Assembly (NCBI RefSeq): GCF_014647475.1
Contig: NZ_BMPG01000002.1
Span: forward strand, 372,001-436,000
DNA length: 64,000 bases
Source of the DNA: Halocalculus aciditolerans
GTDB taxonomy: Archaea; Halobacteriota; Halobacteria; Halobacteriales; Halobacteriaceae
Direction: 5' to 3'
Both the position numbers and the translations under genes were made by a program. Below the pieces are notes generated by a model. It saw only the letters and a program-made list of their open reading frames with translations, had not been told where the DNA came from and did not search any database. Of this stretch, positions 22,683 to 26,915 are shown one piece after another. Each line of letters opens with the position of its first letter. Within the stretch, counting starts at the first letter, position 1.

Positions 22683-23884
22683 TCTCTGTCCACCACCTTA
22701 TCCCGCGTGACGGTCTCACCGAGCGTCGTCGTGCTCTCGGGGTCGAGGCGTACGCCCGCGTTCAGACTCGTGTTGATGCCCGTCTTCGACGCGTCGCCGA
22801 CGACGACGCCGAGTTTTCGTCTTCCCGTATCTATCATGTCTCCTTTCACTTGCATGCGTACGTTCGCGTCGTCGTGCCGTAAGTTCGCTACCGTCGTGCT
22901 CGCGCCGAAGTTCACGGATTCGCCGAGAATCGAGTCGCCGACGTAGGAGAGGTGACCGACGGCGGCGTCGGTCATCAGAATCGAGTTCTTCACCTCGACA
23001 GCGTTCCCGACGCGGACGTCCTCGCCGACGACGGTCGAGCCGCGGACGTAGCAGTTCGGGCCGACGTCCGCGCCCGACTGGATGACCGCGGGGCCTTCGA
23101 CGTACGCGCCGGCGCGGACGCGCGCGCCGTTCTCCACGACGACCGGCCCGTGGACGGTCGCGCCGTCCTCGACGACGCCCTCGACGTGGTGGTCGAGGTC
23201 GGCGAGGAGGTGTTCGTTCGCGTTCAGGAGCTCCCACGGCCGGCCGACGTCCAGCCACTCGCCCTCGTACTCGACGGCGGTGATCGCGACGCCGTCGGCG
23301 AGCGCGCGCGCGATGGACTCCGTAATCTCGTACTCGCCGCGCTCGCTCTTCTCGGTCGCGGCCACGTAGTCGAATACCGCGGGCTCGAAGGCGTACGCGC
23401 CGAGGTTCGCGAGACTGCTCGGCGGCTCCGCGGGCTTCTCGACGATGCCCGTGACGCGGTCGCCGTCGAGGCTGACGACGCCGTAGTTCGAGGGGTCGGG
23501 GACTTCGCGCACGGCGACCGCGTACCCCTCGCTCTCGGCGAGCGCGGCGACGAGCGAGTCGTCGACGACCACGTCCGCGTTGAGGAGGAGGAAGCGCTCG
23601 TCGACGTAGGGTTCGGCCTGTTCGACCGCGTGCGCGGTGCCGAGCTGTTCGTCCTGGACGGCGTAGTCGACGGGAAGGCCGCGGTAGGTGTCGCCGACGC
23701 GCTCTTCGACCATCTCGGACTGGTGGCCGACGACGAGGACGAACCCGTCGACGGCGTCGACGCACTGGTCCATGACGTTCTCCAGGAGGGTCGTGCCGGC
23801 GACGGGGAGGAGCGGCTTCGGGCGCGTCTTCGTCAGCGGCCCCATCCGCGTCCCCTCGCCGGCCGCCATGACGACGGCCTTCAT
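22679..23884 (-). CDS. Bifunctional sugar-1-phosphate nucleotidylyltransferase (second paralogue)
   Basis: A 401-residue protein, same architecture as the downstream gene. MKAVVMAAGEGTRMGPLTKT is the nucleotide loop, KPLLPVAGTTLLENV follows, and LLLNADVVVDDS holds the metal Asp. A C-terminal beta-helix with GASTTVANLRHDD (about 335) and the GlmU-type tail GDASKTGINTSLNAGVRL follows. The last block is close to the acetyltransferase active-site region of GlmU, so this copy is the better candidate for full GlmU activity. Its start overlaps the epimerase stop and its stop overlaps the next start, so all are coupled. Two adjacent paralogues suggest two different activated sugars. Confidence 0.88.
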   Translation of the reverse strand: MKAVVMAAGEGTRMGPLTKTRPKPLLPVAGTTLLENVMDQCVDAVDGFVLVVGHQSEMVEERVGDTYRGLPVDYAVQDEQLGTAHAVEQAEPYVDERFLLLNADVVVDDSLVAALAESEGYAVAVREVPDPSNYGVVSLDGDRVTGIVEKPAEPPSSLANLGAYAFEPAVFDYVAATEKSERGEYEITESIARALADGVAITAVEYEGEWLDVGRPWELLNANEHLLADLDHHVEGVVEDGATVHGPVVVENGARVRAGAYVEGPAVIQSGADVGPNCYVRGSTVVGEDVRVGNAVEVKNSILMTDAAVGHLSYVGDSILGESVNFGASTTVANLRHDDANVRMQVKGDMIDTGRRKLGVVVGDASKTGINTSLNAGVRLDPESTTTLGETVTRDKVVDRE

Positions 23885-24834
23885 GCCGACACCAGCTCCC
23901 GGACCGTCTCCTCGACGGAGTGTTCGGTCTCGAACCCGATGGCGTCGCGCGCGTGACTCGTGTCCACGGTGAAGTCGGCGGCGTCCGTCTCCGCCGACCG
24001 CGGGTTCTCGACCATCTCGATGTCGATTTCGACGCCGAGCTCCTCGCGCGTGACGCGCTGGACGAGCTCGGCGAGCGCGAGCACGCTGTACTCCTCGCCG
24101 CTCGCGAGCGGAATCGTCTCCGCGCCCGGCTCGACATCGCCGCCGACGAGCCGTTCGAGGCTGAGCGAGTACGCGCGCGCCACGTCCTTCACGTGGATGA
24201 AGTCGCGCGCCTGCGTCCCCGGCTCGTGCACTTCGAGGTGTTTCCCCTCCTTCGCGCGGTCCGCGAAGATGTTGATGACCGTGTTCTTCCCCACAGTCTC
24301 GCCGTCTATCTCGTGGTGGCCGTAGATGTTCGACTTCATGTAGACGTGCGCGGGGAACTCGTGCGCGGCGAGCGCGTGCACGTCGTCCTCGCTCATCCGC
24401 TTCGTCAGCCCGTACGTGTTCAGGGGGTCGCGCGGATGGTCGACCGTGATGGGCGTCTCCACGATGTCGCCGAGAATCGCCATACTGGTCGGGAAGACGA
24501 GCGGCGTCCCCGTCTCCCGGCAGAGGCGGGCGACGTCCTCGGTCCCGCGGACGTTCACGTCGAACGCCTCGTCGGGGTCGTCGTCGCAGTCCTGCACGCC
24601 GCTGACGGCGGCGAGATGCATCACGGCGTCGACGCCCGCGAACGCCTCCGCGAGCGCGTCGGTGTTCCGGACGTCGAGTGTTTCGATGGTCGTTCCTTCG
24701 ACGGTCTCGACGGTGCCGACGGAGAAGTCGTCGACCGGGACGACGTCGTGGCCGTCGGCGAGCAGGTTCCGGGTCACCCGCGACCCGATGTAGCCCGCCG
24801 CGCCCGTGACGCCGACAGAGTACGTGTGAGTCAT
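23881..24834 (-). CDS. NAD-dependent epimerase/dehydratase (nucleotide sugar)
   Basis: A 317-residue extended short-chain dehydrogenase. VGVTGAAGYIGSRVTRNLL has the GxxGxxG NAD loop, VMHLAAVSG binds the cofactor, and YGLTKRMSE carries the catalytic YxxxK (Y at about 160). It is probably a UDP-hexose 4-epimerase or dehydratase acting on nucleotide sugars for glycan assembly. The start is 19 bases after the preceding epimerase stop, and the stop overlaps the next start. Two related epimerases next to each other may act in sequence or on different sugars. The exact substrate is not readable. Confidence 0.87.
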   Translation of the reverse strand: MTHTYSVGVTGAAGYIGSRVTRNLLADGHDVVPVDDFSVGTVETVEGTTIETLDVRNTDALAEAFAGVDAVMHLAAVSGVQDCDDDPDEAFDVNVRGTEDVARLCRETGTPLVFPTSMAILGDIVETPITVDHPRDPLNTYGLTKRMSEDDVHALAAHEFPAHVYMKSNIYGHHEIDGETVGKNTVINIFADRAKEGKHLEVHEPGTQARDFIHVKDVARAYSLSLERLVGGDVEPGAETIPLASGEEYSVLALAELVQRVTREELGVEIDIEMVENPRSAETDAADFTVDTSHARDAIGFETEHSVEETVRELVSA

Positions 24835-24853
24835 GGCTGGGTAGTGGTGGGTG

Positions 24854-25777
24854 TTACTGATAGGTGTCCCGACCGATTCGGTGGGCCGGGTCGTACGTCC
24901 CGGCGAGCTCTCGAACGCCCGCCGCGAGGCCGGTCTGCGGTTCGAAGCCCGCGTCCCGCATCTTCTCGAAGCGAACGTGGTAGGAGGGGCCGGGGTCGCG
25001 CTCGTAGCGGTACGCCGTCTCCACGGGCCGGTCGAGTTCGTCGCTCACCACGTCGGCGATCTCCTCGATCTGGAAGTTCCCGAGCCCGACGTTGTACGTC
25101 CCGGCGTCCCAGTCGAGCGCGGCCTCGAAGGCGCGCGCGGTGTCCTGGACGTGGAGGAACGGCCGCCAGTTCGTCCCGTCGCCGTAGACGGTGAGCGGCT
25201 CGCCGGCGAGCGCGCGGAAGACGAAGGAGTTCACGACGAGGTTGAACCGAACGCCCGGCGAGTAGCCGAAGTTCGTCGCGAGCCGGAGACTCACGTCGTG
25301 GAACTCCCGTTCCGCCACGATGTCCTCGCACTCCAGCTTCGACTCCGCGTACGGGTTCCCGGGCATCGGCTCGGACTCCTCCGTGAGCTCCTCCTCGTAG
25401 GTGTCGCCGTAGACGTTACACGACGACGCGAGCACGAACGTGTCGACGGCGGCGGCTTCGGCGGCGTCGGCGACGACTTCCGTGCCGCCGACGTTGACGT
25501 CCATCACGCGGTCCCTGATGTCGTGGGACTTCGCCGCGCCCGTGACGGCGGCGAGGTGAATCACGCCGTCGACGCCCGCCATCGCGTCCTCGACGACGGA
25601 CTCGTCGCGGATGTCGCCGCGGTGGAACTCGACGTCGTCGAGCGAGAGCCCCATCAGGTTCCGCTGGTCGGAGAGGCTGAAGTCGTCGAGCACGCGGACG
25701 TCGTGGCCCGAGTCGAGGAGGTTCCGGACGAGTTCGCTCCCGACGTAGCCCGCGCCGCCCGTGACGAGGAGCTTAAT
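24854..25777 (-). CDS. NAD-dependent epimerase/dehydratase with probable ATT start codon
   Basis: A 307-residue extended SDR, if begun at ATT (25775-25777). The protein then opens IKLLVTGGAGYVGSELVRNL (Met if initiated), giving the complete GxxGxxG NAD loop. YAESKLECE carries YxxxK, and VIHLAAVTG binds cofactor. The first ordinary start (GTG at 25693) would remove the whole nucleotide-binding strand. Upstream in frame there is no ATG, GTG or TTG before a stop. The ATT overlaps the TAA of the sqdB-like gene (GATTAAG), with a GGGGGTG Shine-Dalgarno-like run before it (25785-25791), so coupled initiation is plausible. Activity is probably UDP-sugar 4-epimerase or dehydratase. Confidence 0.87.
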   Translation of the reverse strand: MKLLVTGGAGYVGSELVRNLLDSGHDVRVLDDFSLSDQRNLMGLSLDDVEFHRGDIRDESVVEDAMAGVDGVIHLAAVTGAAKSHDIRDRVMDVNVGGTEVVADAAEAAAVDTFVLASSCNVYGDTYEEELTEESEPMPGNPYAESKLECEDIVAEREFHDVSLRLATNFGYSPGVRFNLVVNSFVFRALAGEPLTVYGDGTNWRPFLHVQDTARAFEAALDWDAGTYNVGLGNFQIEEIADVVSDELDRPVETAYRYERDPGPSYHVRFEKMRDAGFEPQTGLAAGVRELAGTYDPAHRIGRDTYQ

Positions 25778-26915
25778 CGGTGAGCACCCCCGGGAGGAAG
25801 CGGTCCTCGTGCGCCTCGATGCGTTCGCGGTGGTCGACGAGCGTTCCGAGCACCTGCCGGATGCCCTCTTCCATGCTCATCTCGTCGTCGACGAGCCCGC
25901 GGAAGTTCGCGTTATCCATCTCCATCTGGTGCTCTTCGTCCTCCTCGCGCGGGTTCTCGAAGTGTTCGACGTCGGCGTCGAGGTCGAACTCCTCGCCCAC
26001 CTCGGCGATGGTCTCCGCGAGCTCCACGATGGCCACGGGCCGGTTCACCTGGTTGTAGACCGTCACGCCCTCCTCCTGCTCGGGGCCCCGCTCGACGAGC
26101 GCGACGAGGCTCTCCACCGCGTCCTCCAGCGTGACCATCGGCTTGCGCTGCTCGCCCTTCCCGTATACGGTTATGGGGTAGCCGGCGACGGCCTGCGCGC
26201 AGAACCGATTTACGACTGTTCCGAAGTAGTAGTCGAAGTCGAAGCGCGTCGGCATCCCGTACTCCTCCGTTTCTTCCGTTTCGGTGCCGAAGACGATGGC
26301 GGTGCGGACGTCGCTGATCGGCATCCCCCACTCGCCGTTCGCGAGCCGCATGTTCCCGGCGTCGAACGCCTTCGTCTGGTGGTACCACGACCCGCCCATC
26401 GCCGGGAACGGCACCTCGTCGCTCTCGCCCTCGTTCGACATCTCCGCTCCCCCCTCGGGGATGGGGAACTCGGGCGCGCCGTAGACGCCCGTCGTCGTCG
26501 TCTCGATGAAGTGCGTGTCGTCGAGGCCGGCTTCGTGCAGCGCGTGCAGGAGGTTCAGCGTCGAGGAGACGTTGTTCCGCTGCGTGTAGAGCGCTCGCTC
26601 CCCGTTGATTCCCGCATACACCGCGGAGGGCTGGGCGGCGGCGTGGAGCACCGTATCGGGCTCGTAGACGTCCACGAGCTGCGTGACGAACTCGCGGTCC
26701 GCGAGGTCTCCCTCCACGTACGAGACGCCGTCGACGGTCTCGAAACGCGCCTCCGGCTCGTCGATGGGGACGGCGGAGACGCTGCCGGACTCCGCCACCC
26801 ACTCGCGGCGCGCGCCGTTGTCGACGGCGACGATACGGTCGTCGATGCGGTCGGCGAGTCGGAGCGTGGTCGGCCACCCGAGATAGCCGTCTGCGCCAGT
26901 GAGCAGGACAGTCAT
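25773..26915 (-). CDS. UDP-sulfoquinovose synthase-like (SqdB/Agl3-type) epimerase
   Basis: A 380-residue extended SDR. VLLTGADGYLGWPTTLRLAD is close to the GxDGYxGW loop that separates SQD1/SqdB/Agl3 enzymes from ordinary epimerases. TTTTGVYGAPEFPIPEG and WYHQTKAFD (catalytic YxxxK) also fit that group, as do YGKGEQRKPMVTLEDAVESL and the long insert. Such enzymes join sulphite to UDP-glucose to give UDP-sulfoquinovose, used for sulfolipid or, in Sulfolobus, N-glycan. Length and motifs agree; activity is inferred. It leads the operon and is preceded by a TrmB-like operator two bases before the start. Confidence 0.84.
   Translation of the reverse strand: MTVLLTGADGYLGWPTTLRLADRIDDRIVAVDNGARREWVAESGSVSAVPIDEPEARFETVDGVSYVEGDLADREFVTQLVDVYEPDTVLHAAAQPSAVYAGINGERALYTQRNNVSSTLNLLHALHEAGLDDTHFIETTTTGVYGAPEFPIPEGGAEMSNEGESDEVPFPAMGGSWYHQTKAFDAGNMRLANGEWGMPISDVRTAIVFGTETEETEEYGMPTRFDFDYYFGTVVNRFCAQAVAGYPITVYGKGEQRKPMVTLEDAVESLVALVERGPEQEEGVTVYNQVNRPVAIVELAETIAEVGEEFDLDADVEHFENPREEDEEHQMEMDNANFRGLVDDEMSMEEGIRQVLGTLVDHRERIEAHEDRFLPGVLTD

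Follow-up and report, generated by a model that had tools for sequence, protein, structure and literature searches.

The 64,000 nucleotide stretch of DNA analysed here, which we will refer to as the window, is derived from Halocalculus aciditolerans (contig NZ_BMPG01000002.1, positions 372,001 to 436,000), and the part of it considered below lies in a sugar-nucleotide gene cluster comprised of GlmS, two GlmU-like nucleotidyltransferases, two epimerases and an SqdB-like enzyme. The junction between the gene for the latter enzyme and the epimerase gene that follows it has the following features.

25773..26915, minus strand: SqdB/SQD1-like gene of the UDP-sulfoquinovose synthase family (NCBIfam NF041015, 345 bits; PDB 1qrr, E 1e-64)
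25879-25877, minus strand: in-frame TGA closing the epimerase frame upstream, 34 codons before the ATT
25791-25785, minus strand: SD-like GGGGGTG within the upstream gene, 7 nt before the ATT (sequence, duplex energy, kept in the ATT clade)
25777-25775, minus strand: putative ATT start codon (no canonical alternative; kept in nine orthologues; GAT bias)
25775-25773, minus strand: TAA stop of the SqdB-like gene, with one base in common with the ATT (sequence)
24854..25777, minus strand: NAD-dependent epimerase/dehydratase (SDR), 307 aa from the ATT (Pfam PF01370, residues 4-231, 168.8 bits)
25693-25691, minus strand: GTG at codon 29, the first in-frame canonical start, beyond the GxxGxxG motif and not a likely start

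The SqdB-like protein is clearly related to UDP-sulfoquinovose synthase. As its score of 345 bits falls below the NCBIfam equivalog cut-off for NF041015 (575 bits), its substrate may differ from that of the latter enzyme. Downstream of this gene, two related epimerase genes are arranged in tandem (23881-25777), the second of which has a normal ATG.

The sequence of the junction is CCGGGGGTGCTCACCGATTAAGCTC, where GAT TAA closes the SqdB-like gene and ATT AAG CTC opens the epimerase in the +1 frame relative to it. The two genes overlap by a single base within ATTAA, the last T of ATT being the first T of TAA, as the initial annotation of this DNA had proposed. The 3' end of the SqdB-like gene (CCG GGG GTG CTC ACC GAT TAA) contains the GGGGGTG motif, which is separated from the GAT codon by 6 nt and from the ATT by exactly 7 nt, in agreement with the Shine-Dalgarno distance described for it earlier; its duplex energy is -12.3 kcal/mol with a haloarchaeal 16S tail that was assumed and not read from the genome. 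As the third base of a start codon in this register is also the first base of the stop codon and must be a T, none of ATG, GTG or TTG could be accommodated here without losing the stop. The pattern consisting of an SD motif, 4-10 nt and ATTRR occurs four times in the 3.38-Mb genome containing the window, and among these four matches only the epimerase junction separates two long homologous coding frames; the arrangement is thus no mere chance occurrence. Other SD-N-ATT matches in this genome (L055, L056, L058) were rejected, having no plausible second frame.

The start that automatic annotation would choose for the epimerase is the GTG at codon 29 (25693), the first canonical start in this frame; our examination of the sequence bears out that no ATG, GTG or TTG is present between the upstream TGA and this codon. 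The GTG is indeed located past GxxGxxG, and initiation there would cost the protein its NAD-binding strand, whereas with the ATT the protein has a normal N-terminus, the Pfam Epimerase match beginning at its residue 4. In addition, the N-terminal sequence I/M-[NK]-V-L-V-T-G-G is kept in all orthologues, and a start at codon 29 would leave the conservation of the SD motif and the ATT without a reason. Initiation at this GTG is hence considered very unlikely.

To place this junction in an evolutionary context, protein searches were carried out on 392 genomes of the order (E <= 1e-75), which gave matches in 153 of them, and the junctions were read at 80 loci corresponding to 77 distinct proteins (9 with ATT and 68 others). 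All nine ATT orthologues (9/9), which come from three haloarchaeal families, share this ATT-on-stop junction and carry an SD motif 7 nt ahead of the ATT. The window genome, Halarchaeum rubridurum, Hal. nitratireducens and G021 belong to one of these families, G034 to a second and four genomes of a single genus to the third. In a phylogenetic tree the nine orthologues formed one clade with support of 100/100 and with terminal branches of up to 0.74 changes per site; they represent one origin of the ATT and not nine independent events. The ATT is also kept in Hal. nitratireducens, although its stop is TAG and there are two extra codons following. All nine genomes have intact epimerase frames of 297-313 aa. 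The sequencing error that the initial annotation had allowed for as a refutation is removed by this recurrence, and the probability that an error or a pseudogene in the window genome accounts for the junction is next to nil.

In 67 of the 68 other distinct orthologues an in-frame ATG, GTG or TTG lies no more than 19 codons from the LVTGG motif, in most cases at the position corresponding to the ATT, and the sequence M-N-V-L-V-T-G-G of the canonical-start orthologues often aligns with I-N-V-L-V-T-G-G of the ATT orthologues. As in an infC-type gene, AUU is found at the start position of conserved orthologues that have no canonical alternative. One may also consider that the start is some other non-canonical codon close to the ATT, such as CCG or one of the codons just before it, or that initiation is spread over several codons. 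However, the codons preceding the ATT vary across the orthologues and only the ATT is invariant. In-frame stops are present close upstream of it in two of them (L028 and L029). In the first of these, from G021, a TGA in the epimerase frame just two codons upstream of the ATT makes a canonical upstream start impossible and leaves only CGG in between. The 7-nt spacing from the SD motif is also fixed in two gene families (see below), and we regard a neighbouring or diffuse start as very improbable.

Two further loci in this dataset showed unusual features. In the single exception among the 68 orthologues (L071, from G092), the ATG is out of frame with the rest of the gene and the first in-frame start is located 52 codons upstream; this sequence is possibly frameshifted, either by a sequencing error or as a pseudogene. 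In another genome (L037, from G101), the epimerase junction is missing through a deletion that fuses the two genes out of frame, reflecting either a genuine loss or an error in the assembly.

The ATT is composed of the last two bases of the final Asp codon of the upstream gene and the T of its stop. This Asp codon is GAT in 9/9 ATT orthologues, whereas elsewhere in these gene pairs only 32 of the 535 Asp codons (~6%) are GAT; of the 13 other columns of the upstream gene that are Asp throughout, not one is made up entirely of GAT. The chance of such conservation is of the order of 1e-6, as a rough product that uses one genome per deep branch and the GAT frequency of each genome. The bases of the ATT are therefore under selection. 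The SD motif is likewise retained, as GG[GA]GGTG in 8/9 of these orthologues and as CGGGGTG in Hal. rubridurum, and it is always 7 nt from the ATT. With kinship ignored and the 16S tail assumed, the mean SD duplex energy is -12.4 kcal/mol in the ATT clade vs -6.0 kcal/mol in 65 canonical-start orthologues.

The same arrangement was also observed in a second operon. Ten genomes were scanned for SD-N5-9-ATTRR and 392 genomes for GGRGGTG-N7-ATTAR, and many of the matches have one sequence in common, GGAGGTGGGNGGCCATTAG. This sequence spans the last codons of livH (EVGGH*) and the first codons of livM (IS...), an amino-acid transporter gene; both gene products match Pfam BPD_transp_2. At this junction GGAGGTG-N7-ATTAG is found in nine families (f1, f4-f9, f11, f17). 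The N-terminus of LivM was located by protein similarity in 123 of the 392 genomes. Seven of these 123, chosen deliberately as containing the pattern nowhere, showed ATG in ATGA (five), TTG in TTGA (one) and no adjacent livH (one), while the other loci fetched from the 123-genome list have ATT in 33/33 cases.

The livH-livM junctions include L128-L138, L140-L149, L154 and L182-L214. Altogether 57 ATT junctions of this pair were read, in a set that includes pattern-derived loci, CAT-TAR having been part of the selection pattern; in these the stop is TAG in 57/57 and codon 2 is AGC or AGT in 57/57. The frame is closed by a stop 14-26 codons upstream of the ATT, and 8-132 codons separate the ATT from the first canonical start downstream of it. 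His codons elsewhere in these livH stretches are CAC in 26 cases and CAT in 2. Between the ATT and the canonical start of livM, the GC content by codon position is 0.71/0.585/0.862, which is the pattern of a coding frame, vs 0.44/0.904/0.899 directly upstream, and the switch occurs at the ATT. A later canonical start would remove a conserved hydrophobic N-terminal segment of LivM, and in a relative with ATG (L178) the sequence MSTETAS occupies the place homologous to ISTETAD in the ATT members. On these comparisons, translation of haloarchaeal livM appears to begin at a conserved ATT that overlaps the TAG of livH. In one genome (L179, G306) the livM start is a TTG overlapping TGA (GGCATTGAGC) and the SD motif is kept, which resembles a natural replacement of the ATT by a canonical start.

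The presence at the epimerase junction of an SD motif and a stop, with the downstream frame in +1, could also be accounted for by programmed +1 frameshifting at GAT-TAA, SD-stimulated as in prfB, giving rise to an SqdB-epimerase fusion with no separate initiation. The sequence NAT-TAR, as a frameshift would need, is common to the epimerase and livM families. However, judged from the sequences, an Asp or His tRNA would re-pair poorly on AUU (GAT to ATT, CAT to ATT). In prfB the SD is about 3 nt from the P-site codon; here this distance is 6 nt, and the constant 7 nt fits initiation at the ATT. Furthermore, relatives encode the two proteins separately, with ATG at the homologous position, and the 80 loci read included no fused ORF, although these were not gathered to find fusions. 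Frameshifting is thus an unlikely explanation.

The anatomy of the junction, its conservation, the absence of a canonical alternative, the selection on the ATT and the recurrence of SD-7 nt-ATTAR at livH-livM were established by computation. The reading that we favour, to which we assign a probability of about 0.87 based upon this comparative evidence, is that the epimerase is translated from an AUU start by termination-reinitiation, guided by an SD motif within the upstream gene. According to it, a ribosome ending the SqdB-like gene would stop at UAA, the small subunit would be retained through base pairing between the 16S rRNA tail and GGGGGUG near the end of this gene, and a one-nucleotide shift would bring AUU into the P site, where the initiator tRNA would start the epimerase. 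The AUU would then be read by the Met initiator tRNA, translation of the epimerase would be strictly coupled to that of the upstream gene, and the SD would act at the reinitiation step. In the +1 register the closest option is ATT, and the arrangement may be locked in as a result. The proposal made earlier, that a terminating ribosome re-initiates at this ATT, is strongly favoured by these comparisons; its description as rare holds per genome, but the conservation of the junction is deep, and livH-livM provides a second occurrence of the module across the haloarchaea.

In E. coli AUU performs poorly as a start codon, which counts against an AUU start, as does an evolutionary survey in which 1 switch to AUU was found in 61,358 ancestral AUG starts (PMC5622118). 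In Haloferax volcanii, SD motifs in 5'-UTRs give no help to de novo initiation (PMC3986360), and the translation of overlapping genes proceeds by termination-reinitiation with strict coupling, an intragenic SD making a contribution of variable size (PMC6728339). The SD-7 nt-ATTAR module is consistent with this picture, as the SD would hold the small subunit after termination for a one-nucleotide move to AUU.

Both termination-reinitiation (TeRe) and rare AUU starts are already known separately. The TeRe pairs of Hfx. volcanii (Huber et al., 2019; PMC6728339) resemble the epimerase junction in being co-directional overlapping genes from the same group of organisms with an SD in the end of the upstream gene, a location that is usual, though not essential, for such pairs. 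Their overlaps are ATGA and TGATG, which contain a canonical start, whereas at the epimerase junction the start is an ATT within ATTAA or ATTAG, where a canonical start is impossible; the main text of Huber et al. (2019) makes no mention of AUU. AUU is likewise the natural start codon of E. coli infC, which encodes the bacterial factor IF3 and, according to a reference given in PMC2268962, is negatively autoregulated by IF3 via this codon; unlike infC, the epimerase and SqdB-like genes encode no initiation factor. The GTC start of Streptomyces sigR (PMC5472188) is similar in being a conserved non-canonical start in a translationally coupled operon, but it involves another codon and bacterial IF3 control, and its abstract describes no ATT-on-stop overlap. 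The haloarchaeal set to which HVO_1510 of Hfx. volcanii belongs (PMC8305020) also has conserved N-termini unexplained by canonical starts; for HVO_1510 an in-frame CTG or an out-of-frame ATG with slippage has been suggested, and the passages concerned contain no ATT or stop overlap. In the open-licence literature, outside which most subscription journals lie, we found no report of an AUU start combined with termination-reinitiation as a conserved haloarchaeal junction, and nothing on ATT/AUU starts of haloarchaeal epimerase or livM genes.

A candidate for a third ATT-start gene pair is provided by L155-L160, in which GGGGGTG-7 nt-ATTAG joins a protein ending in DD* to one beginning with IS that has no Pfam match. 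In one member (L159) no canonical start is present before codon 96; the pair is regarded only as a candidate, as an in-frame ATG or GTG lies near the ATT in several members. Most of the other non-liv matches from other genomes (L126, L127, L139, L150-L153, L161-L170, L172-L174) were chance-like, with one or both frames short, and in L171 an ATG adjoins the ATT.

It seems likely, more broadly, that haloarchaea possess a third class of overlapping junction, SD-7 nt-AUUAR, where AUU serves as a regular start for ribosomes that have just terminated, and that this class is widespread at livM, fixed in one epimerase clade and probably in use at other genes that are truncated or overlooked by annotation pipelines. 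The general view is that start codons are almost always AUG, GUG or UUG. If true, conservation of an AUU start linked to a stop codon would mean that start selection is relaxed or read differently during archaeal reinitiation, and the ATT junctions provide natural test cases in genetically tractable haloarchaea. For LivM, a common transporter subunit, the N-terminus given in databases would be wrong: in the six RefSeq records inspected (NZ_CP134951.1, NZ_CP090372.1, NZ_CP042240.1, NZ_CP081960.1, NZ_CP100466.1, NZ_CP058580.1), livM begins 51-101 codons after the ATT, in one case at ATA, with the corresponding 51-101 residues missing and a false gap left behind livH.
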